Source: Suillus spraguei (Eukaryota > Basidiomycota > Agaricomycetes > Boletales > Suillaceae). Taken from it: a stretch of DNA of 64,000 nucleotides. Shown here piece after piece: positions 2,810-54,889 of this stretch. The number at the start of each line of letters is the position of its first letter. Positions within the stretch are counted from its first letter, which is position 1. The position numbers and the translations under genes are program-made. The stretch covers positions 124,001 to 188,000 of the forward strand of contig JABCPU010000038.1 in the NCBI GenBank assembly GCA_016800925.1. Direction: 5' to 3'. The notes below the pieces were generated by a model. The model was not told the DNA's origin and did not search any database. It saw nothing but the letters and a program-made list of their open reading frames with translations.

Positions 2810-3620
2810 GGTGTCATCCGAGTCTTTAAGCAGCAGGTGAGCATCCAACAACCTCTGTTTGCGTGTCTATTGATGCAATGTTGCCACGTTGTTCCTTTGG
2901 ATTCTTTACTACCTCCAGAAGCCACTGGTTCCCTTTTATTGGGTCCTTCATCTCTTACAGGAATGCTCCACTCAATTTTTTCATATGGAGGGAAAAAGTA
3001 CGGTTCTGTGGCATACATATCTCATATCATAATTTTATCACATTCTCTTCTCCAGTACAGTGATGTCTTCACATTTACTCCACTCGGACGCGAGGTTACC
3101 GTCGCACTCGGCGCTAAAGGCAACAACTTTGTCTTGGGTGGTAAATCAACTACGTCCTCCGCAGAAGACGTTTACACGTATGTGCAATTGTTTTTCCCTC
3201 GCAAGTATCTTTCTCAACTACAAGTCGCACATTATGACCGCCGTATATGATGTCCCCAACGAAGTGTTCAAGAAGTTTGTCGAAGTAGGCCTTTCAACTG
3301 AGAACTTTCGGGCGTATGCGAGCATGTTCGAACAAGGAGTCCACGATTTCATGCGCAGCGACTAAGCATTCATCATCTGTCAAATAAGCGACGTCAATGA
3401 ATCGGGACGATTTGATGTGACGGATATCATGGGCTAAATCACTATTTCAACTGCCAGCCGGACTCCACAAGGCAAGGACGTCAGGAGTAGTTTAGACAAA
3501 TATTTCTTTGTGCTCTATAACGACCTGGATGGATGTTTCATCTCGTTGGATTTTATATTCCCTACTACCGTCGGGATGAAACGCACAAGAAGATGAGTAA
3601 ACAAGACGCAGAGACCGATT
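2810..3620 (+). pseudogene. Truncated, inverted CYP51 relic (N-terminal half)
   Basis: This plus-strand relic matches exons 1-4 of the CYP51 genes found on the minus strand further right. It keeps the end of exon 1 with its GTGAGC donor (near 2836), a proline-rich exon 2, exon 3 ([18 protein letters not shown], near 3070-3125) and the start of exon 4 ([18 protein letters not shown], near 3246-3300). Exon 4 then carries in-frame stops, the first right after MRSD at 3363. The sequence drifts out of homology near 3620, before the I-helix and the heme-binding region. Without its catalytic half it cannot encode a P450. It faces a DUF6533 relic tail-to-tail, the same arrangement as in the main array but inverted. 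Confidence 0.9.
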
Positions 3621-3939
3621 ATATAAATAAGATCAAGAAACTAATAAATAGGGAGCGTGAGCTGAGCGGTTCATGACACGAACGAGCAACAGATGCGCAC
3701 CACTGGGACATCCAGGTTACTGGGTCAAACATCGTCAGAACGCATAGTAAATTACTCGATTAAATACTACGACCAAAACATTATCCAGGCCTATGTCTCA
3801 ACTCAAATCTACTTCAGAATATCACATAGCTTAAAGTAATACCGATATCAAAGTGGGAATCAATAAAAATGAACTCTCCTGCAGTTCCGCTGCGAAGCAC
3901 TGGATAACCATTAGCTCCATCAAGCATCTACCGTGCTAT

Positions 3940-5570
3940 ATACCACGACCGCTCGATATATACACCTGCTCCTGGAAAGCGATTGAGGTCATGATGGTTG
4001 CTGCGTCGGAATCAGCCATGAGCTTAGCGTGATATTCTCGAATGCCAAGGATTAGACGGGGTCCTAGTACAAACATCTGCACGACCTCCAAAATCTGAAG
4101 CAAACCAGTCAAATATAAAGCATTTTGACTCTATAGATGTGATGAACCGTAGTCACATGGAAATGCAAGTGAACGATCGACATACCGTTAGGAGTGTTGG
4201 GGACAACAAAAGAATCAAAGTGAGGCAAGAAACAGCAAGGAAACTAGCATGTCCGACCCTTCAGCGAAAAAAATGGAACAATGATCACAATATAGACTCA
4301 CCCCATGAAGTAAAGCATGTGAGTTTTCATCAACACTGTGAAACAGTCCCTGATAATCCCTTCTGGGGAATGTCGTCGCAGCTCACGAAAGTGTTTTACC
4401 GCAACCCAGACTGCGAGACACAGTGCGAGGGCCTCCCACACAGTCCCAAGGATCCAGGCAATGGAATCCAGAAGTAAGGCATCTTCCGCATACTCGATCG
4501 AGCACTGATATGTGCCGGAGAGAATGAATTCCTCTGGTATTCGTCAATCAGCCCCATGTACATTCTGTCATCCACAATTAAGTGTACCCTCTGAGTCATA
4601 CAATGTTGCTATCATGGTTGCTACTCCATTAAAAATGTTGATAGCCAGGAAGGGGACGACGAGAAATATCAGGATCTTTCTGGACCGTTGATACATGGCA
4701 TATAACCGAGTAATGATGATGACTTGCAGCATGTTTCAGTCGAGTCAATATCACTGAGTTCTCGCAAGTGCTAAGCTCACCCCATAGCATTGCAAATAGC
4801 ACGACATAGGTCCAAATCCATACGACGAACAGAATTCGGCCTGAGGAATCCAGTCAGTGACCAGCCTCGGGTAGCACACACGCCAAACAGACTCACATCT
4901 GTGGTAGCATAGTGTGGCGGTCGTTACTGAATCAAAATTTCGTAAAGAATCATACTCACTCCTGAGGCACCACTGTTAATTGGAGGGGAATAGCAGGCGT
5001 CCGTGCAGAAGACTCACTGTATCTGTCAGAAAGATGGTCGGAAGACTGCCTGTATACTGTTGGTCCAAAGAAGCAAAGACAGTGAATATACTAAGAAGAC
5101 ATACGCAGTATGTCCACGCTAATTATGAAAGATAGATGATTAGCACAACATCGATTGTTTAGCCTTCCAAACATACGCAGCATATGAGATTCCAAGGTAG
5201 CGCACCTGAGATACTTCAAGTCAGTACAACATGATAATCGTGACAGGCAAACTATGTACATACAACGAGATACAGCACTGTCATCAGTGACCAGTGTTGC
5301 CTCTGGAATGAAGTGTATTTTTGTATGTGTTCCTCCTACATAAAACTCCACTCACCCAAACCAATTCGACCTATGAAACCATTCTTAGCGAGATAGCTGC
5401 TCCAGTCATAGCACCGACATACCTCTTGTCCGAATGTAAGTGCTGGAAATACTTGTAGTCTATCAGCAATTCCTTGATGGTATCATGCTCACCCCAGTCA
5501 TACAGCAGTGCAACAAAGGCGGCAACTGTGAATCGCAAGGTTAGACTTCAACTTCAGCATCCGACTGTTC
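3940..5570 (-). pseudogene. DUF6533-type membrane protein relic (unit 0, nearly full length)
   Basis: On the minus strand the exons run in order. LRFTVAAFVALLYDW lies near 5480-5530, the mini-exon ALTFGQE near 5435, QHWSLMTVLYL near 5280 and VRYLGISYA near 5200. RLYAMYQRSRKILIFLVV lies near 4680, a segment ending ALCLAVWVAVKHFRELRRH near 4380-4440, and the C-terminal VLGPRLILGIREYHAKL near 4040. These are hallmarks of the DUF6533 family of multi-pass membrane proteins of unknown function in Agaricomycetes. The N-terminal part has a stop just before VAAF, and the loop exons are degraded, so I call it a pseudogene. It is the most complete of the eight relics in the window and is tail-to-tail with the CYP51 relic to its left. 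Confidence 0.75.
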
Positions 5571-8877: not shown

Positions 8878-10908
8878 CTAATCAAATCTCCTGCGTCTGT
8901 AGCAGATAGTCCGGGGTTTCTTTGGCATCGTGATCATAGTCTATGGAACGGCGGTCAGCAATACTCATGGGCGGTGATCAACTAAACAGACAAACATGGT
9001 AGTCGCGTGTTGGGATCTCTGTGATGCCATCATCTAATCGAATCTCGACTTTACGTATGATACTGGAAATCACGACTCCAAGTTGCAAGTATGCGAACTA
9101 TTGAAAAAATCAGCCAAGTTCACCTCAGAAAGTGGATAATCAAGAGCACCTGCTCGCCGATGCATCTATGGCGCCCAGCACCAAACGGTTGGTACGGGCT
9201 ATCAGTTCCCTTGCTCACAGCACCAAAACCATAATCAATCTTCTCGCCGTGCTCATCAGAGTAAGCCTTGAATGCCTGAGCAGCAACACCCTCGGGATCA
9301 CTCCACCGTGTCGGATCCCACGTCATGGGGTTGACCCAAATACGGGGGTCAACCTGGCTGACGGCAGAAGAAGCAAGTACGTAGTGGCCCTTTGGGACGA
9401 CATAAACACCACCTTTGGAGGGGACAGCGAGAGTTGCGGGAATCGGGACATCAGAACAAACGTAGCGTATCATGCTGTGAATAGGCGGGTGTATGCGAAG
9501 CGTCTCACGGATGACGGAATCAAGGACTAGAAGCTTGCGGAAGCCCTCATAGGTCATCGGACGAAAAGAACCATCCGGGTTGCCGAAATGCTCCACTTGC
9601 TCCTGGTAAAGTGCTTCCCTATCATGATGATCAGTATGTGTTAGCTCGCCGATAGCGAACAAGACCCACTGAACTTCGATATTGCAAGCAAGGTGAAGAA
9701 GTGTCCATGAACCTGAGGCGGAGCTAGTGTGCTGTCCTGCCATGAGAAGGCCAATCATGAGGTTCGCGATTTCATGGTCACGGAAGGGTCTGCCATCACG
9801 ATATTCTTGATTCATCAAGGTGGAGATCATATCAGGTTCATCCTATAGGATTCATGGTGAACGTTGGCGGGATCTCATTAATGCAAATGCCTTACAGAGT
9901 GACCAGATTCTCTGCGTTTGCGGATAATGTCGGTATAGTACTGGCTCATGATCTTCTGCGCTTCGTCCCGACGGCGGTAAGATTCCAAAGGCAAGTGAGG
10001 GAACATGAAATGCAGCGGGGTGAAACCTCCACCCAAGTCATTGTAAAGCTCAGAGATTGATTTGTCCAAACCACTCCTGACCTCTTTACCTTGCAGAGTC
10101 CGGCTGGCAGTCAAAATAGTTATCTGGGTCATGACATCTGTCACATCGAATCTTCCCCATTTATTGATATCGTTCATTTGCCAGATGATGAATGCTTTGT
10201 CGCTGCACATAAAGTTGTCGACCTCTTGCTCGAATATGCTCACGTACGGCCGGAAGCTTCTAGTCGAAAGACCGACTTTAATGAACTTCTTTTGCTCCAT
10301 GAAAACTTCATTTGGGACATCATATGTGACGTCTTTACCAAAAGCAGGAGTGGTGATGTGCTATTCATGGTTGAGATAGACATTTGCGATATAAAAACAA
10401 TTGCACGTACCATGTAAGCGTCTCTTGCAGAGAACGCAGTCGATTTACCACCCAAGACAAAGTTGTTGCCTTTAGCCCCGAGTGCGACGGTTACCTTGCG
10501 TCCGAATAGAATGAATGTGAAGACATCACCGTACTGAAGAAGAGGGTCAGATGTGAGATATGTACATTATGTCACACGACCATACCTTTTCCCTGCACTT
10601 AAAGAAAAAATTGAGTGGGTCATTACCGTACGAGATGGAGGACCCGATGAAAGGGATCCAGTGGAACACTTCTGGAGGCAATGAAGGATCTCGAGGAACA
10701 ATCTGACGACATTGCATGAGTAGACACGCAAACAAGATTGTTAGACGCTCACCAGCTGCTTAAGGATGTTCAGTACGACACTGAGAACCGGGACATAGAA
10801 AAGTCCCAACAGAAGTGCTCTGCCGGGGGAGGCGGCGGCATACTGCTGCGCGGTATGAACGATAGCTGCAACATAACCCGTAGCTGGGGCGGTCGAATTA
10901 GACGACAT
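8878..10908 (-). CDS. CYP51: CYP51 copy 1 (sterol 14-alpha-demethylase), intact
   Basis: Predicted ER-anchored P450 that removes the 14-alpha methyl group of lanosterol or eburicol in ergosterol synthesis. Eight exons joined by short GT-AG introns give about 555 residues, starting [12 protein letters not shown] at 10908. In order: an N-terminal membrane helix (LLLGLFYVPVLSVVLN), a proline-rich hinge ([13 protein letters not shown]), the B-C loop with [20 protein letters not shown], the I-helix [10 protein letters not shown], the K-helix ETLR, DPTRW, the heme loop [12 protein letters not shown] and a basic end YRRRRFD. Positions equivalent to Candida Y118, F126, Y132 and K143 are kept. I found no frameshift or stop. 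A small last exon of about 20 codons lies beyond a short intron and is easy to miss. Confidence 0.93.
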
Positions 10909-22442: not shown

Positions 22443-22591
22443 CTCGCATTATGTCTCGCAGTCTGAATTGCTGTAAAACACTTCCATGAACTGTGACCAC
22501 ACTCGGCAGGGCTTATCAAGGACTGTTTCACGGTATTGATCAAAACTCGCATGCTTACTTTGCAAGCTCATGCTATGATCATTGTTCCCTG
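22443..22591 (+). pseudogene. DUF6533-type relic fragment between the two large transposons
   Basis: The sequence reads CTCGCATTATGTCTCGCAGTCTG and continues with the exon that elsewhere encodes AVWIAVKHFRELRRHS...DCFTVLIKTHM, then runs into an intron-like ATCATTGTTCCCTG. The left end abuts the Plavaka element (CT duplication) and the right end abuts the copia element (CCCTG duplication). The gene continues at 27881. It therefore records the order of sequence before both insertions. Confidence 0.7.
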
Positions 22592-23021
22592 TGTTGGAAT
22601 CCAAACAATCTGAGAGGAAAGAGACCAAATGATCCGAGATAGGTACGAGTGAGAAGAGATAAGAAGAGTGGTCCGAGTGCAAGGCCAGAATGGCCAATAG
22701 CATGTGCCAGTGTGACGATGTTGTTATGCTGTGCAATATGCTGTTTGATTAGTTTTATTATTGTTGCTAATCCACTCACCTTATAGTAGGTGCTCAAGTG
22801 CAAAAACATCTCAGTTCTTTTCAAGAGACTGAGATGTAAGTACCTAGTCACCAGTCGCTGTTTTTGCCCTGGCTAACGAGTGTTTTAGTTACCTGTTATC
22901 TAGGTACTTTAACCGTCAATATGAGTTCTTTTCAAGAGATTGAGATTTACCTGTTATCTAGCACATCCGCTCCCCACCTTATTGTCTCATAATCCCAGAG
23001 GTTATGAGCCCTGACTCGACC

Positions 23022-26000
23022 ATGGATACTACACTCCCCAGCACTATATCTTCCCCGTTTAACGTCCCGAAGTTAGCTGAAGATGGTTCAAATTGGATCA
23101 CTTACAAGCAGAGGACACTGACAGCTATAAGTGCCCAAGGTTTGATGTGATATGCCACTGGAAGAGCTAAGAAGCCTGTCATGTACAAACTCGATGATAA
23201 GACAAAAGTCTTCAAGAAGAAAGATAGGAGCCAGGCCAGTGCTACGGAGATAGAGGAACTTGAAAACAAAATCGAGGAGTATCAACAAAAGAACTCACTT
23301 GTCATGCAGCAGATATTCAGCACGATCTTTGATCGGCTTTTACTGCACGTCCAAAGCCTGGAAGGTGCCCACGAGATCTGGGCAGAGATCTGCCAGATCC
23401 ATGAAGGCAAAACGCAAACGGTCCAGATAGACTTGCGCCATCATATGCATGAGACGAGATGCGAGGAGGGAGGCGATGTAAAGGCCCACTTTGCCAAGTT
23501 GTTGAGGCTCCGCGAGTGTCTTGCAGGCATGGGTGTCAATATAGAGGACATGCACTTTCACGTGATGGTGCTAGGGTCCCTGCCAGAGTCATACAAGCCC
23601 CTGCTATCGTCCATCACTGCTACTGCCAAAATAATGAATACACCACTTACCACGCATGAGCTCATCAGCCTGATAAGTGAAGAGTACGAGCATCGGCAGC
23701 TGAGCGACCAACGTCCTGGCTGGAAGGCAGGAAATAGTGCCCTGAATGCCAGAGAGGCAAAAGGCAAGGGAAGAGTGTCAGCTACCTCCAGTAAAAGTAA
23801 CCCGGACATTACCTGCTTTAATTGCGACCGCAAGGGCCACTATAAGACCAACTGCTGGAGATCAGGAGGAGGAAAGGAGAATCAAGGGCCAAATCAACAG
23901 TGAAAGAGAGGAGAGAGACCTCCCAAGCAGGCCGCAAACTCAGCAGCCGAATCCTCCAAACCTGTGGATCAATACGCCTTTGTAACATCAGACTTAGCCA
24001 GTGTGGTGACAGACTTAAACATACCAGTGGAGAGGTGAGGTGCCATTGTAGACTCGGGAGCGACATCCCATTTCTGCCCAGATTGAGCAAAGTTCACGAA
24101 CTTTGTGAAAATAGCACCCCAAGATGTGCATACAGCAGACGGTTCCACCCTCAGTGCCATAGGACGAGGCGACGTGGAGATTGAGCTACCTTTGGGTCAG
24201 AAAAAGACCAGTGTCACATTGAAAAACACATTATACGCACCTGAGATGGCTTTCAGCCTCATATCCACTAATAGAATCACCTCCACTGGCCTCGTTGTCC
24301 TGTGCAAAGGCCGCATGTGCAAGATACTCTCGCACACACCCAAACGACGAGTCATTGCCAAAATCCCCCAAGTCAAAGGCCTATATAGTGTCATTGCCAC
24401 ACATCAGACGCATCACACACACATAGCAAAGTCCAAGCTCACTGTCAATGAATTGCACAAAGTCTTGGGCCATGTGTCCCAACCGGCAGCCATGGATGCT
24501 GTGAGAAAAGGACTGGTCACAGGCATTGAACTTGATGCCAACTCAAAACCTGAATTTTGTGATGCCTGCATAAAGGCGAAGTCAGCAAAAAGGCCATTTC
24601 CCACAGAGACAGACAGCAGAGCACTTACCTATGGGGAACTAGTCCATACAGACCTCTGGGGTCCAGCGCAGACCACAAGCCTCGGCAGATGTCTCTACTA
24701 CATCAGCTTTACGGATGACTACAGTCGCCAAACGAGGCTTCAGTTCTTGAGACTCAAGAGCGAAGCACTTACTGCCTTTAAGGCCTATGAGGCCTGGGTT
24801 GCTCATCAATCGCTGGGAGTACGCCTACGGAGGGTCTGATCTGATCGCAGGGGAGAGTACCTGAGTGCAGAGTTTGACACCTACCTATCTCAGCATGGTA
24901 TAGAGCGTCAGTTGACTGTACACAACTCACCTCAGCAGAATGGCATAGCCGAGCACCTAAATCGGACTCTGGTAGAGCACGGAAGGGCAATGCTTATCAC
25001 CAAGGACCTCCCGAAGTTCCTCTGGGTGGAGGCTGTCAGTTATGCTACCTGGTTAAAGAATTGCCTACCATCTAGAGCGACACCAGGCACCACGCCCTAT
25101 GAACTTGTCCGAAAGGCAAAGCCCAGCCTTGCACAGGCATGCGAATTTGGATGCGCCGCCTATGTCCACCTCTTGGATGCCAGGAAACTCGAGCCGCGAG
25201 CAGAGGAAGGGATTTTTGTGGGGGTGGATGCAGAGAGCAAGGGTTACCGTATCTACTAGCTGGAGAAATGGAGGGTGTCAGTGGAACAGAACGTGACCTT
25301 TGCCCCTACCAAGGTGACTGTTGCCCAAGATGTACTGAATGAGGGGGAGTCCAACACCACCCTGAACAGTAACAGCAACAATAACAACAACGATGTTGCA
25401 GTTACTGAAGCTGGCAACGCACCTACCGTTCAGCACATCCCAGTGCCACCATCCTCCATCCCTACTCCAGAGCTGAGAGTAACGCACAGTAGGCCAGCCC
25501 CAGGTTACTATACCAGACTTCAGAATGGCCAGATGGCAACAGTTGCCATAGAGTCCCTGCTGGAGGCGTCAGAATTGGACCTCCTGGATGAGGTAACCCA
25601 CCTAGAACATGCCCTGGCTGCTGCCGAGCCAGAGCCCACCTTGCAGCAGGCATTGAATGGCCCAGATGTGGTTGAATGGAAGGAGGCAGTTGACTACGAG
25701 ATCAGTCAGTTAGAGAAACTCGGCACATGGGAGGTAACAGACTTACCCCAAGGAGCTAATGTCATCCCCTGCCATTTTGTCCTGGCGACGAAGCGAGGCC
25801 CAGATGGCAAGAAACTTAAGCTCCATGCCCACCTAGTTGCAAATGGTCAGAGGCAGCAATACGGTGTCGACTACTTCGACACCTTTGCCCCAACCACAAA
25901 TATGAGCACCATCAGGACGGTCCTGACGATGGCAGCCCAGAAGGACTGGGAAATCCACCAGGTCGACATCAAAAGTGCTTACCTCTATGCTACCATCCAG

Positions 26001-27477
26001 GAAGAGATCTATATGAGGCCGCTGCCCAGATATCTGAAGGATAGTCAGCAAGGAAAGGTATTGAAGTTAAAACAGAGCTTACCTGGCCTGAAACAGGCCG
26101 GCTTTGAGTGGGCGGAAGAGCTGGTGGGAGTTTTTGAAAAGCTCAAGTTTACCCGCTCAAAGGTAGACCAGGCCATCTACTTCAAGCAAGGGCCCAATGA
26201 GCATGTCGTCATCACTGTGTCTGTAGATGACATGGCCGTCACCGCCAACCATATCTCCCACATCCACCGCTTTAAGGCACAACTCCTCGACTTCTTTGAG
26301 ATATCGGACCTAGGGGAGTTAAACTGGCTGTTAGGACTGAAGGTAACGTGCGACCGAACTGCACGCACCTTAACCCTATCACAGAAAGCATACGTCAATA
26401 CCATAGTCGAGAGGTTTTACCTCACCAAAGCAAAGAGTGCCCAAACCCCCATGGAACCAGGCACCATGTCATCTGTGGATCAGTGCCCTAGCACACTCGC
26501 AGAAACACAGGCCATGAGTGACGTACCTTATCAGCGAGCTATCGGGTCGCTAATGTATGCTGCCACAAGCACACGGCCTGATATAGCCTTCACTGTGGCC
26601 ACCCTTTCACAGTTTATGCAGAACCCAGGAAGAATTCACTGGGAAGCAGCCAAACGCGCACTCCGATACCTAAAAGGGTCAGCAGAGATTGAGCTCACCC
26701 TCAGCATGACAGATGAGGGTATAGAGGCCTTTGTGGATGCAAACTGGGTGTCCCATCCCCACCGACACTCGATATCCAGCTATATTGTTCTACTGAACAG
26801 AGGACCAGTAGCCTGGAGTGTGAGGAAGCAGCCATTAATTGCTTTATCCACAGCAGAGGCTGAGTACATTGCACTTACCAGTGTAGCTTGGGAGGTACTG
26901 TACCTCCAACTTCTCATTGGTGAACTCTACAATGCACCATCCCTTCCTACATCAGGAAATTCACACATTCCTTGACGTGCTTAATCAGCTTAACTCACTT
27001 ATCTCAAAACTTGTTTGCTCTCTCTCACATCATTCACCTGGCATATCTTATATTTTTTGAGTGCGAAATATAATAAAACATGTATATTAATATATCTCAA
27101 CTTTTTTTTTCTGAATTCACTCACATTGAAATTTTGGACAAGTAGATTCAATTTCACCAAGGCAGTTAAGTGTAAATAAGTCTGCATAAGGGCACGTCAA
27201 GGAATGTGTGAATTTCCTGATGTACCCCCATATTCTGCGATAACCAGGCCGCTATTGCGTTAGCGAGTACTGGGAAGTTCCAATCATGCACCAAACACAT
27301 CGACCTCCAGTACCACTTTGTTCATTCCCACGTCAGGAACGGAACGTTCAATCTCCTCTATTGTCCCACGGACAAGAATGTGGCCGATGCCTTCACCAAG
27401 GCTTTACCCCGCCCGCACCTTCAAAAGTTGAGGACACAGATGAGCCTGGCTTGCACTCAAGGGGGAGTGTTGGAATC
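23022..27477 (+). pseudogene. Copia Gag-Pol polyprotein with six in-frame stops
   Basis: One reading frame from ATG at 23022 covers everything up to the MITE. It has Gag with zinc knuckle CFNCDRKGHYKTNC (near 23815-23860), protease VDSGATSHF (near 24050) and the integrase zinc-binding motif with the core residues HTDLWGP, FTDDYSR and SPQQNGIAEH. Reverse transcriptase (VKSAYLYA-like region, SVDDMAV near 26220) and RNase H (FVDANW, LSTAEAEY) follow. After the MITE, CDNQAAIALASTGKF and VADAFTKALP finish the protein. Stops lie at 23148, 23901, 24036, 24084 and 24837 (all TGA) and 25257 (TAG). The element cannot move by itself. Confidence 0.93.
26953..27219. mobile_element. MITE with 28-bp perfect terminal inverted repeats
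   Basis: A 267-bp AT-rich insertion without coding capacity. Its ends start CAGGAAATTCACACATTCC at 26953 and are inverted at 27219. The first 28 bases of each end match perfectly. The 2-bp duplication AT (26951-26952, 27220-27221) flanks it. Removing it restores the copia RNase H frame across PTCTPIFCDNQAA. The 2-bp duplication and CA-terminus resemble the Plavaka-type element to the left, but the repeats differ, so the mobilising transposase is not identified. Confidence 0.9.
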
Positions 27478-27880
27478 CAAACGATCCGAGAGGAAAGAGA
27501 CTGAAGGATCCGAGATAGGTATGAGTGAGAAGAGATAAGAAGAGTGGTCCGAGTGCAAGGCCAGAATGGCCAATAGCGTGTGCCAGCGTGACGACGTCGT
27601 TACGCTGTGCAATATGCCATTTGATTAGTTGTATTATCGTTGCTATTCCACTCACCTTATAGTAGGCGCTCGAGTGCAAAAACATCTCAGTTCTTTTCAA
27701 GAGACTGAGATGTAAGTACCTAGTCACCAGTTGCTGTTTTTGCCCTGGCTAACGAGCGTTTTAGTTACCTGTTATCTAGGTACTTTAACCGTCAATATGA
27801 GTTCTTTTCAAGAGACTGAGATTTACCTGTTATCTAGCGCGTCCGCTCCCCACCTTATCGTCTCATAATCCCAGACCCTG

Positions 27881-32245: not shown

Positions 32246-34286
32246 CTAGTCAAATCTCCTGCGTCTGTAGCAGATATTCCGAGGTTTCTTTGGCGTCGTG
32301 ACCAAGGTCTATGGAACAATGGTCAGCAATACCCGTAAGCGGTGATCAACTAAACAGACAAACATGGTAGTTGGGTGCTGGAACCTCTGTGATTCCATCC
32401 TCTAACCGAATCTCGACTTTACGGATGATGCTGGAAATCACGACTCCAAGTTGCAAGTATGCGAACTTGAAAAAATCAGCCAAATTCACCTCAGTCAGCA
32501 GATAATCAAGCTCACCTGCTCGCCAATGCATCTATGCCGTCCAGCACCGAAAGGTAGGTACGGGCTCTCAGTTCCCTTGCTCATGACACCAAATCCATAA
32601 TCAATCTTCTCGCCACCCTCGTCAGAGTAAGTCTTGAATGCCTGAGCAGCAACACCCTCGGGATCACTCCACCGTGTCGGGTCCCACTTCATGGGGTTGA
32701 CCCAAATATGGGGGTCAAGCTGACTGATGGGAGAAGAAGCAAGTACGTAGTGGCCCTTTGGGACAACATAAACGCCACCTTTGGAGGGGGCAGCGAGACT
32801 TGCGGGAATTGGGACGTCAGAACGAACGTAACGCATCGTGCCGTGAAGAGGCGGGTGCAAGCGAAGCGTCTCACGAATGACAGAATCGAGAACTGAAAGC
32901 TTGAGGAAGCCCTCATAGGTCATCGAGCGGAAAGAACCATCCGGGTTGCCGAAATGCTTTACTTGCTCCTGGTACAGTGCTTCCCTATCACGATGATTAA
33001 TAAATGTTAGCTGTAGATAACGAACAAAGACCCACTGAACTTCGACATTGTGAGCGATGTGAAGAAGTATCCATGAACCTGAGGCGGCGCTAGTGTGCTG
33101 TCCTGCCATGAGAAGACCAGTCAAGATGTGCGCGATTTCGTGGTCACGGAAGGGTCTGCCATCACGATATTTTTGATTCATCAAGGTAGAGATTATGTCA
33201 GGTTCGTCCTGTAGGATTCATGGTGAATATTGGCGGGATCTCATCAATGCAAACGCCTTACAGAATGACCTGATTCTCTGCGTTTGCGGATAATATCGAT
33301 ATAATACTGGCTTATGATCTTTTGCGCTTTGTCCCGACGGCGGGAAGACTCCAAAGGCAAGTTAGGGAACATGAAATGCAGCAAAGTGAAGCCTGCAGCC
33401 AAGTCATCGTAGACCGCGGAGATTGATTTGCCCAAACCACTCCTGACTTCTTTGCCTTGTAGAGTCCGGCTGGAAGTCAGAATAATGATATGGGCCATGA
33501 TATCCATCACATCGAATCGTCCCCATTCATTGATGTCATTCATTTGCCAGATGGTGAATGCTTTGTTGCCGCGCATGAAGTTATCGACCTCTTGCTCGAT
33601 CATGCTCACATACGGCCGGAAGCTCTTAGTCGAAAGGCCAACTTTAATGGACTTCTTTTGCTCCATATATACTTCCTCTGGGACATCATATATGACACCT
33701 TTACCGAAGGCAGGGGTCGTAATGTGCTATTCGTGGTTGAGATAGAGATAGACATTTGTGAGGCCAAAACAATTGCGCGTACCATGTAAGCCTCCCTTGC
33801 AGAGAACGCAGTCGATTTACCACCCAATACAAAGTTATTGCCTTTAGTGCCAAGTGCGACGGTTATCTTGCGTCCGAGTACATTGAATGTGAAGACATCG
33901 CCGTACTGAAGAAGAGGGTCAGAAAAATCGTGACACGAAATATGTATATTATACGACCGTACTTTTTCCCTGCACTTGAAGAAAAAATTAAGTGGGTCAT
34001 TGCCATACGAGATGGAGGACCCGATAAAGGGGATCCAGTGGAACACTTCAGGAGGTAGTGAAGGATCTCGAGGAACAACCTGATGACATTTCATCAGTAG
34101 ACACACAAACAGGAGTTGTTAGATGCTCACCAGCTGCTTAAGGATGTTCAGCACGACGATGAAAACCGGGGTATAGAAGAGTGCTAACAGAAGTGCTCTA
34201 CCAGGGGAGGCGGCGGCATACTGCTGCGTAGCATGAAGGATAGCTACAACATAACCCGTAGCTGGGGCGGTCGAATTAGACGACAT
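32246..34286 (-). CDS. CYP51: CYP51 copy 3 (sterol 14-alpha-demethylase), intact, divergent
   Basis: Eight exons, about 555 residues, start [19 protein letters not shown] at 34286 (a second ATG is one codon upstream). Motifs: [56 protein letters not shown] and a final exon ending YRRRRFD. It shares Glu in YDVPE, EQKKSIK and the CAAG acceptor before exon 7 with copy 2, so copies 2 and 3 form a subfamily. In the L-helix approach it has [11 protein letters not shown] where the others have [11 protein letters not shown]. No stop or frameshift found. It lies 3.8 kb from copy 2, the shortest spacing in the array. Confidence 0.92.
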
Positions 34287-37430: not shown

Positions 37431-39497
37431 TTATATGGTATAGGTATTTAGAGGAAGTGGAGCGCATCCTCTAATCAAATCGCCTGCGCTATAGCGGACA
37501 TTTCGAGGTTTCTTCGGCATCGTGATCATAGTCTATGGAAAGATGGTCAACAATCTTCGTGAGAGGTAATTGACTGAACAGACAAACATGATAGTTGTGT
37601 GCTGGGATCTCTCTAATTCCATCGTCTAACCGAATCTCCACTTTGCGGATGATACTGGAAATCACGACTCCTAGTTGCAAGTATGCGAACTATTGAAAAA
37701 TAAGCCAAATTCGTCTTAGTAGGAGGTAATCCAGCGTACCTGCTCGCCGATGCATCTATGCCGCCCAGCGCCGAAAGGTTGGTACGGGCTCTCAGTTCCC
37801 TTGCTCACAGCACCAAAACCATAATCAATCTTCTCGCCATTCTCGTCAGAGTAAGTATTGAACGCCTGAGCTGCAACACCCTCGGGATCACTCCATCTTG
37901 TTGGGTCCCACTTCATGGGGTTGACCCAGATAAGAGGATCAACTTGGCTGACGGCAGCAGAAGCAAGCACGTAGTAACCCTTTGGGACAACATAAGCGCC
38001 ATCTTTGGAGGGCGCAGCGAGAGTTGCGGGAATCGGGACATCAGAACGAACGTAACGCATGATGCTGTGAATAGGCGGGTGCATCCGAAGCGTTTCACGA
38101 ATGACAGAATCAAGGACTAGAAGCTTGCGGAAGCCCTCATATGTCATCGGGCGAAAAGAACCATCCGGGTTGCCGAAATGCTCCACTTGCTCCTGGTAAA
38201 GTGCTTCCCTGCCATGATAATCGGTATATGTTAGCTGCCGATGACGAACAAGACTCACTGGACTTCGACATTGTGAGCAAGGTGAAGAAGTATCCATGAA
38301 CCTGAGGCAGAGCTAGTGTGCTGTCCTGCCATGAGAAGCGCAATCATGAGGTGCGCGACTTCGTGGTCACGGAACGGTCTGCCATCACGATATTTTTGAT
38401 CCATCAAAGCGGAGATCATATCAGGTTCATCCTATAGGATTCACGATGAGTGTTGATCAGGTCTCATCAATCCGAACGCCTTACACAGTGACCTGATTCT
38501 CTGCGTTTACGGATGATATCGGTATAATACTGGCTCATCTTCTTGTGCGCTTCGTCCCGACGGCGATAAGATTCCAAAGGCAAGTTAGGGAACATGAAAT
38601 TCAGCGGGGTAAAGCCTCCATCCAGATCGTTGTAGAGCGCAGAGAATGATTTATCCAAACCACTCCTGACCTCTTTGCCTTGCAAAGTCCGGCTGGCAGT
38701 CAAAATAGTGATTTGGGCCATGACATCCGTCACATCGAAGCATCCCCATTCGTTGATGTCGTTCATTTGCCAGATGATGAATGCTTGGTCGCTGCGCATG
38801 AAGACGTCGACCTCTTGCTCGAACATACTCACGTACGCTCGGAAGCTCTCAGTCGAGAGGCCGACTTTGACGAACTTCTTTTGCTCCATGAACACTTCGT
38901 TTGGGACATCATATACGACGTCTTTCCCGAAGACAGGGGTCGTGAGGTGCTATTTGTGGTTGTGGAAAACAAAACATTTGCAAGGCAAAAAAAGATGCAC
39001 ATACCGTGTAAGCGTCTTCTGCAGAGAACGCAGTCGATTTGCCACCCAAGACAAAGTTGTTGCCTTTAACCCCGAGTGCGACGGTCACTTTGCGTCCGAG
39101 TAGAGTGAATGTGAAAACATCGCCATACTGAAGAAGAGGATCAGATAAAATCATGACATGAAATATGTATATCACACGACCGTACCTTTTCCCTACACTT
39201 GAAGAAAAAATTGAGTGGGTCATTGCCGTACGAGATGGAGGAGCCAATGAAAGGGATCCAGTGGAACACCTCCGGAGGTAATGAAGGATCTCGAGGAACG
39301 ACCTAGCGACATTGCATCAGTAGATATGAGAACAGGTGTTGCTAGATACTCACCAGCTGCTTGAGGATGTTCAAGACGACGATGAGAACCGGGATATACA
39401 AGAGTCCCAGCAGCACCGCTCTTCCAGGAGAGGCGGCAACATATTGTTGCGTAGCATCAACGATAGCCGCAGCTGGGGCAGTCGAATTATAGGACAT
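37431..39497 (-). CDS. CYP51: CYP51 copy 4 (sterol 14-alpha-demethylase), altered C-terminal tail
   Basis: Eight exons starting [19 protein letters not shown] at 39497 (exon 1 is four codons shorter than in copy 6). All catalytic landmarks are present: [42 protein letters not shown] and [12 protein letters not shown]. In the last exon a 1-nt loss changes CGCTACAGACGCAGG to CGCTATAGCGCAGG. The usual end YRRRRFD is replaced by [20 protein letters not shown] with a stop at 37431; the ancestral stop position is 37471. The changed part lies beyond the heme-binding domain, so activity may survive. It is nearly identical, introns included, to broken copy 5. Confidence 0.85.
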
Positions 39498-40540
39498 GAA
39501 AGGATAATGAAGACAAATTACAAACAGTGCAAGTTATGTAGCCTTGGTCTTCCATACTAACAGCATAGAAATTGCCCATCAATTACATGATGGATTATCG
39601 ATTAAGCCTGGTGCGTTTACTTGGCGTTTACATCAGAGTGGCACTGCTCCGTTACTCACTTTTACCGGGGCGTTCCGAAACTCAGACTCAGCTCATCCTG
39701 CCGTTCTTGTATGGACAGTGGGTGGACCAGCGTCTTCTACTCTCAATTCGTTTCTGTTTGCAGTCGGTGTTAACCATTCACTGCATTAATACTTCAATCA
39801 TGGATTGTTGCACACAATTGAATTTGATGGACATGCGGCAAGCCTCTTCTTCGAAGGGTCGGCATCACACGTTGGCCCTTACGGTTATCAAATACACGTG
39901 GGCAGATGTATGGCTCTCTCAACTTATTTCAGTCTGATAACGTGCCAACAGAGTATTACCGCCTTCTGATCCTTCTACAATCAAAAACCCTAGGATATGA
40001 ATACTCCTGAGGCTCGTCAATTAAGTTTTACTGTACGGTTTGAAGAACAACAAATCATGTTTCATGCTGTCATATCAGCACTGTTTGGATCTAACGATGT
40101 CATCGTATCTTAACCCGATAACCGAAGAAGAGAGCAAGAAGGTGCTCATGTAGCAACAGATGGTTTGAGGACGAGGAGCATGGATAGATATCGAGATATG
40201 TGCTCGCACACGGGTAGAACGTGAGTTATCTGTTTGTTATGTGTGGATTTCTCCTATGTTTGACCGTTTATCTTTGGTCTTGGCATGCCGACACATACTG
40301 CCTTCCATTTTTGCGGTATTCAAGTGTTCCGCCGGTGCAAATGTTTCATTACTAACATTAAGCCCTTCGTACAAGCACTGCATCATGACGGTGGCACAAC
40401 TAACATGGTGCAATGACTGCCGTGATCATACATATACTAAGTTCGCCTCTTATCTATACCTATTCTCTAACCGCATGACCATAGTCTCAAATGATCCCAT
40501 TTAGTGGCCGGTCATCAATTCACACCGTGTTTCCAGCTAT
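39498..40540 (+). other. CYP51 copy 4 5' flank and shared upstream block
   Basis: Bases 39498-39600 repeat the CYP51 5' flank. Bases 39945-40400 repeat the block found upstream of DUF6533 relics (GTGCCAACAGAGTATTACCGCC and CCGAAGAAGAGAGC). The ORF at 39572-39937 has no recognised domain. Confidence 0.45.
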
Positions 40541-41300
40541 TTTGTAGGTTCGTGGAGAGCATTCCTATGTTGAAGCTAATATCTCAATCCCACCTCGAAT
40601 GCGGTTCACAGTCACCGACTTTGTTGGACTGCTGTATGATTGGGGTGAGCACGATATGTCAGGGGGTTACTTATAGTTTACAAGTATTTCCAGTACTTAC
40701 ATTTGGACATGAGGTATGTTGATGCTATGACCGGAGCAGCTATCTCGCTGAGAATGGTTTCCATAGGTGTCTGCGTGAGTAAAATCTCATGTCAGAGGAA
40801 CACATGGATACACTTAATTCCAGGGCATCCGAGTCGCTGTTCCCTAATGACAATTATGCATCTCGGTGTATGTAGCTTGCTCGCGGTTGCCACGTGCTGA
40901 TTGGAAAGCTCCTAGGTGCGCTACCTTGGAATCTTTGATGCTGCGTATGTCTGAAAGGCTAAATAATCGGTGTTGTGTTAATGGTCTATCTCTCATAATC
41001 AGTCTGGACATGCTGTGTATGTCCACTTGGTATATCATTCACTGTCTGTACTTCTTCTGACCGACAGCATACAGGCAGTTTTCCGATCAACTCTCTGACA
41101 GATACAGTGAGTTTTCTGCGCAGATGATTGCTATCCCCCTTCAATTAACCGTGGTGCCATGTAGGAGTGAGTATGATTCTTTACGAAAGTTTTGGTTTAG
41201 TAATCACTGTCACAGATTTGAGTTTATTTGGAGTGTGGCTGGTCACTGACTGGATTCTGTTCGTCGTGTGAATTGTGAGTTTGGCACTTGCAAGAATTCG
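40541..41300 (+). pseudogene. DUF6533-type membrane protein relic (unit 5)
   Basis: Contains VTDFVGLLYDW with a GTGAGC donor (near 40610-40645) and the LTFGHE mini-exon (near 40695-40715). An exon with SLMTIMHLGVCSLLAV follows (near 40835-40895), then VRYLGIFDAAY-like bases near 40915. The relic stops before the MYQRSRK exon. Premature ends in the second and third exons make it non-functional. Confidence 0.7.
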
Positions 41301-42874: not shown

Positions 42875-44899
42875 CTAGTCAAATTTCCTGCGTCTGTAGC
42901 GGACATTTCGAGGTTTCTTCGGCATCGTGATCATGGTCTATGTAAAGATGGTGAATAATCCTCGTGAGAGGTGATCAACTAAACAGACAAACATAATAAT
43001 TGTGTGCTGGGATCTCTCTAATTCCATCGTCTAACCGAATCTCCACTTTGCGGATGATACTGGAAATCACCACTCCTAGTTGCAGGTATGAGAACTATTG
43101 AAAGATCAGCCAAATCCATCTTAGTAGGCAGGTAATCCAGCGTACCTGCTCGCCAATGCATCTATGTCGCCCAGAACCGAAAGGTTGGTACGGGCTCTCA
43201 ATTCCCTTGCTCACAGCACCAAAACCATAATCAATCTTCTCGCCATTCTCGTCAGAGTAAGTATTGAACGCCTGAGCAGCAACACCCTCGGGATCATTCC
43301 ATCGTGTTGGGTCCCACTTCATGGGGTTGACCCAGATAAGAGGGTCAACTTGGCTGACGGCAGCAGAAGCAAGCACATAGTAGCCCTTTGGGACAACATC
43401 ATAAACGCCATCTTGGGAGGGCGCAGCGAGAGTTGCGGGAATCGGGACATCAGAACGAACGTAACGCATGATGCTGTGAATAGGCGGGTGCATCCGAAGC
43501 GTTTCACGAATGACAGAATCAAGGGCTAGAAGCTTGCGGAAGCCCTCATAGGTCATCGGGCGAAAAGAACCATCCGGGTTGCCGAAATGCTCCACTTGCT
43601 CCTGGTAAAGTGCTTCCCTGCCATGATAATCGGTATATGTTAGCTGCCGATGACGAACAAGACTCACTGGACTTCGACATTGTGAGCAAGGTGAAGAAGT
43701 ATCCATGAACCTGAGGCAGAGCTAGTGTGCTGTCCTGCCATGAGAAGCGCAACCATGAGGTGCGCGACTTCGTGGTCACGGAACGGTCTGCCATCACGAT
43801 ATTTTTGATCCATCAAAGCGGAGATCATATCAGGTTCATCCTAAAGGATTCACGATGAGTGTTGATCAGATCTCATCAATCCGAACGCCTTACACAGTGA
43901 CCTGATTCTCTGCGTTTACGGATGATATCGGTTAGAATACTGGCTCATCTTCCTGTGCGCTTCGTCCCGACGGCGATAAGATTCCAAAGGCAAGTTGAAG
44001 AACATGAAATTCAGCGGGGTAAAGCCTCCATCCAGATCGTTGTAGAGCGCAGAGAATGATTTGTCCAAACCATTCCTGACCTCTTTGCCTTGCAAGTCCA
44101 GCTGGCAGTCAAAATAGTGATTTGGGCCATGACATCCGTCACATCGAAGCATCCCCATTCGTTGATGTCGTTCATTTGCCAGATGATGAATGCTTGGTCG
44201 CTGCGCATGAAGACGTCGACCTCTTGCTCGAACATACTCACGTACGCTCGGAAGCTCTCAGTCGAAAGGCCGACTTTGACGAACTTCTTTTGCTCCATGA
44301 ACACTTCGTTTGGGACATCATATACGACGTCTTTCCCGAAGACAGGGGTCGTGAGGTGCTATTTGTGGTTGTGAAAAACATTTACAAGGCCAAAAAAATT
44401 GCACATACCGTGTAAGCGTCTTCTGCAGGGAACGCAGTCGATTTGCCACCCAAGACAAAGTTGTTGCCTTTAACCCGAGTGCGACGGTCACTTTGCGTCC
44501 GAGTAGAGTGAATGTGAAAACATCGCCATACTGAAGAAGAGGATCAGATAAAATCATGACATGAAATATGTATATCACACGACCGTACCTTTTCCCTACA
44601 CTTGAAGAAAAAATTGAGTGGGTCATTGCCGTACGAGATGGAGGAGCCAATGAAAGGGATCCAGTGGAACACCTCTGGAGGTAATGAAGGATCTCGAGGA
44701 ACGACCTAGCGACATTGCATCAGTAGATATGAGAACAGGTGTTGCTAGATACTCACCAGCTGCTTAAGGATGTTCAAGACGACGATGAGAACCGGGATAT
44801 ACAAGAGTCCCAGCAGCACCGCTCTTCCAGGAAGGCGGCAACATATTGTTGCGTAGCATCAACGATAGCCGCAGCTGGGGCAGTCGAATTGGACGACAT
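42875..44899 (-). pseudogene. CYP51: CYP51 copy 5, multiply frameshifted
   Basis: Nearly identical to copy 4 but with several small indels in exons. One base is lost in exon 1 (near 44832, CCAGGAAGG against CCAGGAGAGG). One is lost in exon 3 (near 44472, TTAACCCGAG against TTAACCCCGAG) and one in exon 4 (near 44095, GCAAGTCC against GCAAAGTCC). One base is gained at the end of exon 4 (near 43932). There is also a 3-nt insertion in exon 6 that keeps frame (YDVVPKGY). The heme loop reads [12 protein letters not shown]. The late exons are still open and the final exon still ends in FD-stop, so the damage is young. Confidence 0.92.
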
Positions 44900-47416: not shown

Positions 47417-49462
47417 CTAGTCAAATCTTCTGCGTCTGTAGCGGATATTCCGAGGTTTCTTCGGCATCGTGATCATGGTCTATGTAAAGACGGTCAACTA
47501 TACTCATGAGTGGCGATCAACTGAACAGACAAACATGGTAGTTGTGTGCTGGGACCTCTGTAACTCCATCGTCCAACCGAACCTCGACTTTGCGGATGAT
47601 ACTGGAAATCACGACTCCTAGTTGCAAGTATGCGAACTATTGAAAAATTAGCCAAATCCACCTCAGCAAGAAGACAATCAAGCGCACCTGCTCGCCAATG
47701 CATCTATGCCGCCCAGCGCCGAAAGGTTGGTACGGGCTCTCAGTTCCCTTGCTCACAGCACCAAAACCATAATCAATCTTCTCGCCATTCTCGTCAGCGT
47801 CGGTCTTGAACGCCTGAGCAGCAACACCCTCGGGATCACTCCATCGTGTCGGGTCCCACTTCATGGGGTTGACCCAGATAAGAGGGTCAACCTGGCTGAC
47901 GGCAGCAGAAGCAAGCACATAGTAGCCCTTTGGGACAACATAAATGCCATCTTGGGAGGGCGCAGCGAGAGTTGCGGGAATCGGGACATCAGAAGAAACA
48001 TAACGTATGATGCTGTGGATAGGGGGGTGCATCCGAAGCGTTTCACGAATGACGGAATCGAGAAGTGGAAGCTTGCGGAAGGCCTCATAGGTCATCGGAC
48101 GGAAAGAACCATCCGGGTTGCCAAAATTCTCCACTTGCTCCTGGTAAAGTGCTTCCCTATCATGATAATCAGTATATGTTAGCTGCCGATAACAAACAAG
48201 ACCCACTGGACTTCGACATTGTGAGCAAGGTGAAGAAGTGTCCATGAACCTGAGGCAGAGCTAGTGTGCTGTCCTGCCATGAGAAGCGCAATCATGAGGT
48301 GCGCGACTTCGTGGTCACGGAACGGTCTGCCATCACGATATTTTTGATCCATCAAGACGGAGATCATATCAGGTTCATCCTATAGGATTCATGGTGAATG
48401 TTTACTGGATCTCATTAATGAAAACGCCTTACACAATGACCTATTTCTCTGCGTTTGCGGATAATATCGGTATAATACTTGCTCATCTTCTTGTGCGCTT
48501 CGTCCCGACGGCGATAAGATTCCAAAGGCAAGTTAGGGAACATGAAATTCAGCGGGGTGAAGCCTCCATCCAGGTCGTTGTAGAGCGCAGAGAATGATTT
48601 GTCTAAACCACTCCTGACCTCTTTGCCTTGCAAAGTCCGGCTGGCAGTCAAAATAGTGATCTGGGCCATGATATCCGTCACATCGAATCGTCCCCATTCG
48701 TTGATGTTGTTCATTTGCCAGATATCGAATGCCTGATCGCTGCCCATGAAGTCGTCGACCTCTTGCTCGAACATACCTACGTATGCCCGGAAGTTTTCAG
48801 TTGAAAGGCCGACTTTAACGAACTTCTTCTGCTCCATGAATACATCGTTGGGGACATCATATACGACGTCTTTACCGAAGATAGGGGTCGTGAGGTGCTA
48901 TTCGTGGTTGATAACTTGATATAGACATTTGTGTGGTCAAAAGCAATTGCACACACCGTATAAGCGTCCTTTGCAGAGAACACAGTCGATTTACCACCCA
49001 ATACAAAGTTGTTGCCTTTAGCCCCAAGTGCGACAGTAACCTTGCGTCCGAGTAGAACGAATGTGAAAACATTGCCGTACTGAAGAAGAGGGTAAGACGA
49101 AATCATGACATGAGATATCTATGTCACACGACCGCACTTTTTCCCTGCACTTGAAGAAAAAATTGAGTGGGTCATTGCCATACGAGATGGTGGACCCGAT
49201 GAAAGGAATCCAGTGGAATACTTCTGGAGGTAGTGAAGGATCTCGAGGAGCAACCTGGCGACATTACTATCAGTATACACGCGAACAGGTGTTGCTAAAC
49301 ACTCACCAGCTGCTTAAGGATGTTCAAGACGACGATGAGAACCGGGATATACAAGAGTCCCAGCAGAAGTGTTCTACCAGGGGAGGCGGCGACATACTGC
49401 TGTGTAGCATCACCAATAGCTCCAATATAGCTCGAAGCTGGGGCGGTTGAATTGGACAGCAT
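47417..49462 (-). CDS. CYP51: CYP51 copy 6 (sterol 14-alpha-demethylase), intact
   Basis: The best-resolved member. Exons: 49307-49462, 49138-49254, 48957-49079, 48433-48897, 48207-48379, 47688-48156, 47535-47636 and 47417-47479, giving 555 residues, all GT-AG and in phase. The N-terminal helix is [16 protein letters not shown] and the B-C loop [20 protein letters not shown]. The I-helix is [13 protein letters not shown], then ETLR, DPTRW and [12 protein letters not shown], with the last exon [20 protein letters not shown]. Length and motifs fit fungal CYP51 (ERG11), which demethylates lanosterol or eburicol at the ER. Start is MLSNST where the other copies mostly have MSSNST. No lesion seen. 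Confidence 0.95.
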
Positions 49463-52000: not shown

Positions 52001-52129
52001 CCTCAGCAATCCATCCTCGATTCATTCACACGTCCCACCCCTGTTTTCTCGCCTGACTCACGCCAACCAGCTTACAGAAGATGATTACAAGGTGAGCGCC
52101 GAGGCAGTGTGCATGGGACGGTGATCATT

Positions 52130-52830: not shown

Positions 52831-52856
52831 TATCTAGAGGACGTGGAGCACATCCT

Positions 52857-54889
52857 CTAATCAAATCTTCTGCGTCTGTAGCAGACATTCCGAGGTTTCT
52901 TCGGCATCGTGATCATGGTCTGCGGAAAAACGGTCAACAATACTCGTGAGCGTTGATCAACTGAACAGACAAACATGGTAGTTGTTTGCTGGGATCTCTG
53001 TAATTCCATCTTCTAACCGAACCTCGACTTTGCGGATGATACTGGAAATCACGGCTCCAAGTTGCAGGTATGCGAACTATTGAAAAAATCAGCCGAATTC
53101 ACTCCGGCATGCAGGTAATCAAGCGCACCTGCTCGCCAATACATCTATGTCGCCCAGCACCAAAAGGTTGGTACGGGCTCTCAGTTCCCTTGCTCACAGC
53201 ACCAAAACCATAATCAATCTTCTCGCCATTCTCGTCAGCGTCGATCTTGAACGCCTGAGCAGCAACACCCTCGGGATCACTCCATCTTGTTGGGTCCCAC
53301 TTCATGGGGTTGACCCAGATAAGAGGATCAACTTGGCTGACGGCAGCAGAAGCAAGCACATAGTAGCCCTTTGGGACAACATAAATGCCATCTTTGGAGG
53401 GCGCAGCGAGAGTTGCGGGAACCGGGACATCAGAACGAACGTAACGCATGATGCTGTGAATAGGCGGGTGCATCCGAAGTGTCTCACGAATGACGGAATC
53501 GAGAACTGGAAGCTTGCGGAAGGCCTCATAAGTCATCGGGCGGAAAGAACCATCCGGATTGCCGAAGTGCTCCACTTGCTCCTGGTAAAGTGCTTCCCTG
53601 CCATGATAATCAGTATATGTTAGCTGCCGATGACGAACAAGACCCACTGGACTTCGACATTGTGAGCAAGGTGAAGAAGTGTCCATGAACCTGAGGCGGA
53701 GCTAGTGTGCTGTCCGCCATGAGAAGCGCAATCATGATATGCGCGATCTCGTGGTCACGGAGGGGTCTTCCATCACGATATTTTTGATCCATCAGAGCGG
53801 AGATCATATCTGGTTCGTCCTATAGGATTCACAGTGAGTGTTGATCAGATCTCATCAGTGCAGACAACTTACAGAGTGACCTGATTCTCTGCGTTTACGG
53901 ATGATGTCGGTATAATACTCGCTCATCTTCTTGTGCGCTTCGTCCCGACGGCGGTAAGATTCCAAAGGCAAGTTAGGAAACATGAAATTCAGCGGGGTAA
54001 AGCCTCCATCCAGGTCGTTGTAGAGCGCAGAGAATGATTTGTCCAAACCACTCCTGACCTCTTTGCCTTGTAAAGTCCGGCTGGCAGTCAAAATAGTGAT
54101 CTGGGCCATGATATCCGTCACATCGAAGCGTCCCCATTCGTTGATGTCGTTCATTTGCCAGATGATGAATGCCTGGTCGCTGCCCATGAAGTTGTCAACT
54201 TCTTGCTCGAACATATCCATGTACGCCCGCAAGTTTTCAGTTGAAAGGCCGACTTTAACGAATTTCTTCTGCTCCATGAACACTTCGTTGGGGACGTCAT
54301 ATACGACGTCTTTACCGAAGACAGGGGTCGTGAGGTGCTATTTGTGGTTTGTGAAAGACATTTGCGAGACACAAACAATTGCACATACTGTGTAAGCGTC
54401 TTCAGCAGAGAATGCAGTCGATTTGCCACCCAAAACAAAGTTGTTGCCTTTAGCTCCGAGTGCGACGGTCACTTTGCGTCCGAGTAGAGTGAATGTGAAA
54501 ACATCGCCATACTGAAGAAGAGAATCAGATAAAATTCATGAGATATGTATGTCACATAACCGTACTTTTTCCCTGCACTTGAAGAAAAAATTGAGTGGGT
54601 CATTGCCATACGAGATGGAGGAGCCAATAAAAGGGATCCAGTGGAACACTTCTGGAGGCAGTGAAGGATCTCGAGGAACAACCTGGCGACAGCACATCAG
54701 TAGACATGAGAACAGGTGTTGCTAGATACTCACCAGCTGCTTAAGGATGTTCAGTACGACAATGAGAATCGGGGTATAGAAAAGTCCCAGTAAAACTGCT
54801 CTACCAGGAGAGGCGACGACATACTGTTGCGTAGCATCAATGATAGCTGCAATGTAGCCTGCAGCCGGGGAAGTCGAATCCGATGACAT
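52857..54889 (-). pseudogene. CYP51: CYP51 copy 7, single frameshift in the I-helix
   Basis: The eight-exon structure is otherwise complete: MSSDSTSPAAGYIAAIID start at 54889, [41 protein letters not shown], last exon ending YRRRRFD with stop at 52857. In exon 5, near 53715, CTCATGGCAGGACAGCAC is CTCATGGCGGACAGCAC, one base short. Translation then leaves the frame exactly at the conserved AGQHTS motif ([12 protein letters not shown]). Unless this is a sequencing or assembly error, the product lacks the catalytic half. Every other exon is open, so the lesion is recent or wrong. Confidence 0.85.

Follow-up and report, generated by a model that had tools for sequence, protein, structure and literature searches.

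The window analysed here, a stretch of 64,000 nucleotides at positions 124001-188000 of contig C569 (295,388 bases) in the 86.2 Mb assembly of Suillus spraguei, a member of an ectomycorrhizal genus on Pinaceae (PMC9009389), holds a tandem array of CYP51 genes (sterol 14-alpha-demethylase) made up of seven gene-length copies, all on the minus strand, together with an inverted fragment; the units are numbered c1 to c8 here (Table 1). All seven gene-length copies have eight exons in the same structure with GT-AG introns, follow one another at start-to-start spacings of 19.5, 3.8, 5.2, 5.4, 4.5 and 5.4 kb, and are 83.5-90.2% identical in DNA over at least 2 kb, which is far beyond chance. The original prediction had described an eight-unit CYP51 amplification with seven copies in one orientation, an inverted relic and an identical eight-exon structure; copy alignments and exon structure agree with this layout, and the amplification is indeed unusual, except that one of the eight units (c1) is a fragment only.

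Table 1. CYP51 copies and other features, in positions of the window
Feature	Position	Strand	Description
c1	2823..3600	+	Inverted CYP51 relic with exons 2 and 3 and the larger part of exon 4; 74-78% identity; stops
c2	8883..10908	-	CYP51 gene, 8 exons, intact frame; pocket 12/77, moderately remodelled; public protein P0009
c3	28421..30442	-	Eight-exon CYP51 gene with an intact frame on this haplotype; remodelled at 17/77 pocket positions; annotated publicly as P0016
c4	32251..34286	-	Eight-exon CYP51 gene, intact on each haplotype; strongest pocket remodelling (21/77); annotated publicly as P0011
c5	37476..39497	-	CYP51 gene, canonical pocket (2/77); public protein P0003
c6	42880..44899	-	CYP51 pseudogene, several frameshifts; public model P0095
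c7	47422..49462	-	Intact eight-exon CYP51 gene; pocket close to canonical (5/77); 100% identical to public protein P0001
c8	52862..54889	-	CYP51 gene adjoining RNB gene; pocket 0/59 positions changed without exon 5; public model P0007
RNB-domain gene	55152..58156	-	Mitochondrial exoribonuclease type; open reading frames 55152-57662 and 57704-58156; conserved CYP51 neighbour
Copia retroelement	22591..27875	+	Between c2 and c3; long terminal repeats 22591-22999 and 27467-27875, 409 bases, 94% identical
Plavaka-type transposase piece	17447-17899		In the c2-c3 gap; Pfam match
Dispersed repeat	40435..41257		c5-c6 spacer; found with 74% identity or higher at no fewer than 40 places in the genome (40 of 214 candidates scored)

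The best match among solved structures is 6cr2, annotated as 'Cyp51B', at 3.9e-145 for c7 and 3.3e-134 for c4; we take this structure to be Cyp51B of Aspergillus fumigatus. The heme motif, the ExxR motif and the I-helix motif AGQHT are kept in c2, c3, c4, c5 and c7, and c5, c7 and c8 look like ordinary, canonical CYP51. A scan of NCBIfam returned bacterial P450 models only, far under their cut-offs.

The reading frame is intact in c2, c3, c4 and c7 on this haplotype, so that the four intact copies read in the original prediction are recovered. Its suggestion of several functional enzymes may hold for these intact copies, but does not extend to c6, a pseudogene in which two frameshifting indels are common to both haplotypes and whose rate ratio is not different from 1 (see below). 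The other lesions are single bases: c5 has a 1-base deletion in the last exon only, which changes its tail, and an intact frame on the other haplotype; on this haplotype c8 lacks one base in its I-helix exon, exon 5; and on the other haplotype c3 lacks one base in exon 6. Public databases already list seven of the eight units as separate proteins named 'cytochrome P450' or 'hypothetical', and proteins from the window are 100% identical to the public S. spraguei proteins P0001, P0011 and P0131. The public model P0007 (c8) shifts frame through exon 5 and thereby masks the lesion, and P0016 (c3) keeps intron 2 as coding sequence. The genes of the array, then, are already annotated. Together they make up a tandem CYP51 family, one branch of which has a remodelled pocket.

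Second haplotype and genome-wide count

Three other contigs are colinear with parts of the window: C1008 with positions -951 to 9079 (99.3% identity, 10 kb), C850 with positions 27256-47562 (99.2% identity, 20.3 kb) and C635 with positions 51709-62617 (98.5% identity, 10.9 kb). They are most simply explained as the second haplotype, and carry in the same order c1, the 3' end of c2, c3, c4, c5, c6 and c8; the assembly of this haplotype lacks most of c2 and nearly all of c7. An exon-wise search of the 86.2 Mb assembly found no CYP51 outside the array among the 78 of 96 candidates scored, and matches above 45% identity (lower bounds) are confined to C569, C1008, C850 and C635. Among the candidates scored, the genome-wide count that had been proposed as a check thus returns the array contig and the second-haplotype contigs only. 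C1008 was considered as a second, unlinked CYP51 locus and rejected, for it represents the left end of the array on the other haplotype.

The second-haplotype contigs differ in their load of one-base indels against the window. C1008 (L044, L045) has up to 9 per kb without substitutions; the left part of C635 (L043), which holds c8, has 13 per kb and 9 substitutions; the right end of C850 (L042) is indel-rich too, and most of C850 has few. Many of these one-base indels are probably uncorrected long-read sequencing error, and single-base lesions on either haplotype therefore need to be treated with care. The lesions of c8 and c5 are found on this haplotype only, that of c3 on the other only.

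Changes in the ligand pocket

The ligand pocket was defined by 77 positions from Table 1 of PMC7908997, with whole stretches taken for the substrate recognition sites (SRS); the stretches printed there fixed the location of SRS1, 4, 5 and 6. Changes were counted against P0002, a JGI protein placed among the Suillus orthologues in the protein tree, and the background consisted of 119 of 130 proteins (118 for the pocket/outside ratio, in which P0002 is the reference), leaving aside seven S. spraguei proteins, P0008 and P0025 of S. subalutaceus, which are damaged models, and two proteins outside 500-590 amino acids. The copy c8 entered the protein tests without exon 5 and hence without SRS4.

Relative to P0002 the pocket is changed at 12 of 77 positions in c2, at 17 in c3 and at 21 in c4. 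The corresponding counts are 2 for the other-haplotype c5 (c5B), 5 for c7 and none of 59 for c8, and among orthologues none for S. bovinus and S. paluster, 2 and 4 for Rhizopogon vinicolor and 3 for Hydnomerulius. A conserved pocket is accordingly kept by c5, c7 and c8 (59 positions), partly abandoned by c2 and departed from by c3 and c4. The changed stretches in c2 to c4 are SRS1, SRS4, SRS5 and SRS6, and the ratio of change in the pocket to change outside it reaches 1.22 in c2, 1.41 in c3 and 1.71 in c4, as compared with a median of 0.28 and a maximum of 0.70 among the 118 background proteins. Some of the altered residues are otherwise nearly fixed: the SRS5 serine, present in all 119 background proteins, is a cysteine in c3 and a glycine in c4; the proline of the FTP motif (118 of 119) is a phenylalanine in c3 and a leucine in c4; and an I-helix alanine (118 of 119) has become a glycine in both. 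Out of 153 near-invariant sites, 16 are broken in c3, 11 in c4 and 5 in c2, and one each in c5B, c7 and c8; the 119 background proteins have a median of 1 and a maximum of 9.

A permutation that matched pocket and non-pocket columns for conservation gave p=0.0004 for c4, 0.014 for c3 and 0.018 for c2 (uncorrected for multiple tests). It was not significant for c5B, for c7 or for five proteins of four other species, namely two of R. vinicolor and one each of Hydnomerulius, Scleroderma and Serpula.

Selection on the copies

Ratios of nonsynonymous to synonymous change (omega, or dN/dS) were estimated with our own implementation of a branch codon model of the GY94 type with F3x4 frequencies. With c6 and either c3/c4 or c2-c4 in classes of their own, the background omega is 0.20-0.24. 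The value for c6, which serves as an internal pseudogene control, is 1.2-1.6 depending on the model and not different from 1 (likelihood-ratio test statistic, LRT, 0.08). The c3/c4 clade has an omega of 0.42, which lies above the background (LRT 9.8) and below 1 (LRT 29.9) and is unchanged under two topologies; its stem has 1.22 and its tips 0.34 (LRT 7.1, p=0.008). The estimate of dN/dS proposed in the original prediction sets the c3/c4 clade apart from neutrality.

Pocket and remainder of the protein behave differently. Under one topology, pocket omega is 0.085 on the canonical branches and 0.586 in the c2-c4 clade (LRT 21.9, p=3e-6), whereas outside the pocket the values of 0.231 and 0.313 show no significant difference (p=0.11). 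The release of constraint in c2 to c4 is specific to the pocket.

Ancestral position and age of the copies

The copy c8 adjoins an RNB-domain gene. By hand comparison of the 28 species named among the best 120 matches of both genes, the RNB gene and CYP51 lie on a contig of the same size in 24, S. spraguei included; the four others are S. subalutaceus, Fomitiporia mediterranea, Coniferiporia weirii and Mycena sanguinolenta. Sharing a megabase scaffold does not in itself prove adjacency, but the two genes have neighbouring locus tags in Bondarzewia and Tricholomella, and tags that differ by two in Athelia sp. TMB. As c8 adjoins the gene that is the contig companion of CYP51 in 24 of 28 species, it is the copy in the ancestral place.

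In the protein tree, which took in c2-c5, c7 and c8 without exon 5 and left out c1 and c6, the six S. spraguei copies group together within Suillus as a single clade with support 90/95, inside which c2-c4 are united at 100/99. The expansion is thus specific to the S. spraguei lineage among the species sampled. Pairwise synonymous divergence (dS) between the copies is 0.23-0.42, apart from c5-c6 with 0.07, and that between alleles is 0-0.022. The copies are therefore old, and on these distances the duplications long predate allelic divergence. A recent amplification of the kind selected by fungicides was rejected because of the same values (c5-c6 excepted).

About 100 bases of proximal upstream sequence are common to c2 through c7, and the sequence upstream of c8 (54890-55151) lacks them. 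Identity between copies varies along the gene, perhaps because of gene conversion, which may have blurred the history of the copies and could bias the rates of individual branches. S. subalutaceus has two CYP51 proteins (P0008, P0025), both odd gene models on a contig of 51842 bases, for which an independent tandem duplication is possible; R. vinicolor has two CYP51 proteins on contigs of unequal size.

Spacers and neighbouring genes

The c5-c6 spacer was considered as a co-amplified gene and rejected, since it is a dispersed repeat, which is present in other spacers and in the left flank too. Such spacer repeats may have aided unequal crossing-over. The c2-c3 gap contains a Copia element, with gag and reverse transcriptase domains and matched at about 96% by second-haplotype pieces, and a piece of a Plavaka transposase; the open reading frames around the latter (15907-18762) have no Pfam match. 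Pfam scans of 13 window reading frames and of 6 of the 14 flank frames considered (at least 120 amino acids) brought up transposon domains, RNB or no domain only. No oxidosqualene cyclase match lies on C569, cyclase-domain matches being found only on C403 and C251. Neither Rfam (at gathering scores) nor ARAGORN reports an RNA gene in the window. A tandem array at window positions 395-1083 comprises 4.6 units of 149 bases. By eye these look like a minus-strand tRNA-Leu(CAA), but neither ARAGORN nor Rfam calls a tRNA there.

Interpretation and alternative explanations

We consider it probable, with some reserve, that this is a tandem CYP51 array in which canonical copies serve ergosterol synthesis and c2 to c4 have been released to an altered ligand specificity. 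Repeated tandem duplication of a single RNB-adjacent CYP51 in the S. spraguei lineage would have given rise to the array. The copies c8, c5 and c7 would have retained the canonical sterol pocket and 14-alpha-demethylation and, judging from their sequences, would make ergosterol, while c2, and above all c3 and c4, would have been freed from this duty. In the latter, purifying selection would have preserved the scaffold, heme site and catalytic motifs as the ligand pocket diverged, and change would have come in a burst along the branch to c3/c4. The proteins of c2 to c4 would then be made and active as working P450s that accept another sterol or a triterpenoid, bind the same sterol differently, or have a pocket less open to inhibitors; c6 and c1 would be products of decay. 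The narrower proposal that c3/c4, and partly c2, are a fungal counterpart of the plant CYP51H enzymes and oxidise another sterol or triterpenoid, by means of a rebuilt pocket on a conserved scaffold, we put forward as a tentative possibility.

Several points weigh against this reading. The pocket list derives from yeast structures, and 20 single pocket positions outside the SRS stretches were placed with a yeast sequence. The pocket test was prompted by differences first spotted by eye, so that its p-values are optimistic, and within the 153 near-invariant columns pocket enrichment is weak for the single copies (c2 p=0.28, c3 0.09, c4 0.17; 0.037 for the union of c3 and c4). The canonical set is not uniform: c7 has a pocket/outside ratio of 0.65, exceeding 116 of the 118 background proteins, and a free-branch omega of 0.42, and is thus partly relaxed and not perfectly canonical. 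The c3/c4 stem omega is not significantly above 1 (LRT against 1 of 0.16), which leaves room for relaxation. The deletion of c3 on the other haplotype sits where other indels are few and may be real. The support of the S. spraguei clade is just under the mark that the tree tool sets for strong support, and the DNA tree groups c8 with c5/c6 despite c8's dissimilar upstream region, a discrepancy that may go back to gene conversion or promoter replacement. Lastly, as the original prediction had noted for terpenoid and sterol genes, no such gene and no other partner gene was identified by Pfam in 13 window reading frames and the scanned flank frames.

The discrepancy between pocket and scaffold can have other explanations. 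On the one hand, c2 to c4 may be redundant copies in relaxed decay towards pseudogenes, the pocket changing most as the most constrained part. That copies decay at this locus is shown by c6 and c1, c3 is frameshifted on one haplotype, and the omega of c3/c4 is about twice the background. Nevertheless we regard decay as unlikely: this omega is far below 1 and falls in the tips after the stem, the c2-c4 clade does not differ significantly from the background outside the pocket, both haplotypes of c4 are intact, and pocket columns change more than other columns of like conservation. Decay alone is the less likely because c6 displays its signature within the same locus.

On the other hand, c2 to c4 might be spare demethylases that differ in target-site insensitivity alone, with a pocket tolerant of CYP51 inhibitors from the soil or of the fungus's own making. 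The changes do fall in the substrate and inhibitor pocket (SRS1, SRS4, SRS5 and SRS6) and the catalytic machinery is retained, but the alteration of the SRS5 serine and the FTP proline should hurt sterol binding, and the reading frames scanned revealed no linked biosynthetic genes; we think this explanation improbable. A little more doubtful still is a dosage effect, by which the array would raise the amount of ordinary CYP51 as do the fungicide-selected copies of Erysiphe necator, in which effects of CYP51 copy dose are documented (PMC4298948). The canonical pockets of c5, c7 and c8 could add up in this way, but the copies have diverged (c5-c6 excepted) instead of being near-identical, their duplications are far older than allelic divergence, and three of the six genes, c6 and c1 aside, have remodelled pockets. 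From the roles listed in the original prediction a recent gain in dosage is thus unlikely in view of the old, diverged copies, and altered ligand binding is favoured for c2 to c4 by the change of their pockets. An assembly artefact, in which haplotypes or paralogues were wrongly joined, is hardly credible: second-haplotype contigs do break off within c2 and within c7, and some of their stretches have one-base indels resembling sequencing error, but the copy order is the same on two colinear haplotypes, spacers and flanks are unlike between copies, and divergence between copies greatly exceeds that between alleles, so that a collapsed or duplicated-haplotype artefact was rejected.

Comparison with known systems

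Our preferred reading, a tandem array with canonical and pocket-remodelled copies, has to be seen against the low copy number of CYP51 in fungi. In a survey of 295 species, which is based on RefSeq and may miss copies, one CYP51 was counted in 180 species, two in 100, three in 14 and four in 1 (PMC9635630), in line with the one to three genes that had been assumed for most fungi; the main text of that survey makes no mention of Suillus. We found no published account of the array, and none of CYP51 neofunctionalisation in Suillus or other Boletales, in open-licence PMC papers on CYP51 with Suillus or Boletales.

With the canonical basidiomycete CYP51/ERG11 (group Cyp51 in PMC9635630) the copies c5, c7 and c8 share the eight exons, the heme motif, ExxR and a nearly unchanged pocket (c8 without exon 5), and c8 shares the RNB neighbour; the tandem multi-copy arrangement of S. 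spraguei and the broken conserved pocket positions of c2 to c4 set the array apart. The CYP51A, B and C paralogues of ascomycetes likewise provide more than one CYP51 per genome, with labour divided among them, but they are two or three genes spread across Pezizomycotina (PMC6491756, PMC9635630), unlike the array, which is lineage-specific in our sample. Tandem P450 expansions are common in basidiomycetes, for instance in CYP5144, CYP512 and CYP5150, and resemble the array in tandem duplication and conserved gene structure; they concern xenobiotic and secondary families, however, and CYP51 is not among the enriched families named there (PMC3899305). Multiple CYP51 copies in one fungal genome are also known from E. 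necator, in which EnCYP51 varies from 2 to 14 copies, the gain is tied to fungicide use, and a single amino-acid difference in CYP51 was noted among five sequenced isolates (PMC4298948). The copies of S. spraguei, in contrast, are not near-identical and recent but old, diverged, partly pseudogenised and partly pocket-remodelled.

Described as the P450 best conserved between kingdoms, CYP51 is also the chief target of azole antifungals (PMC10455484). Canonical copies and pocket-exploring sister copies side by side amount to a natural experiment, one that can tell the pocket positions required for sterol demethylation from those that can vary while the protein remains under selection. A parallel to c2 through c4 is plant CYP51H (for instance TaCYP51H and BdCYP51H of arborinane clusters), described as duplicated and neofunctionalised sterol genes (PMC9169793). 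Both cases involve several linked copies of a duplicated CYP51 thought to have quit sterol demethylation, and the combination that we set as the mark of a CYP51H type, a diverged pocket on a scaffold under purifying selection, is found in c2 to c4. A linked oxidosqualene cyclase and demonstrated triterpenoid products set the plants apart from what is known of S. spraguei. Plant CYP51H may have undergone the same pocket-first release, and the S. spraguei array presents a case in which neofunctionalisation of a fungal CYP51 could be tested.

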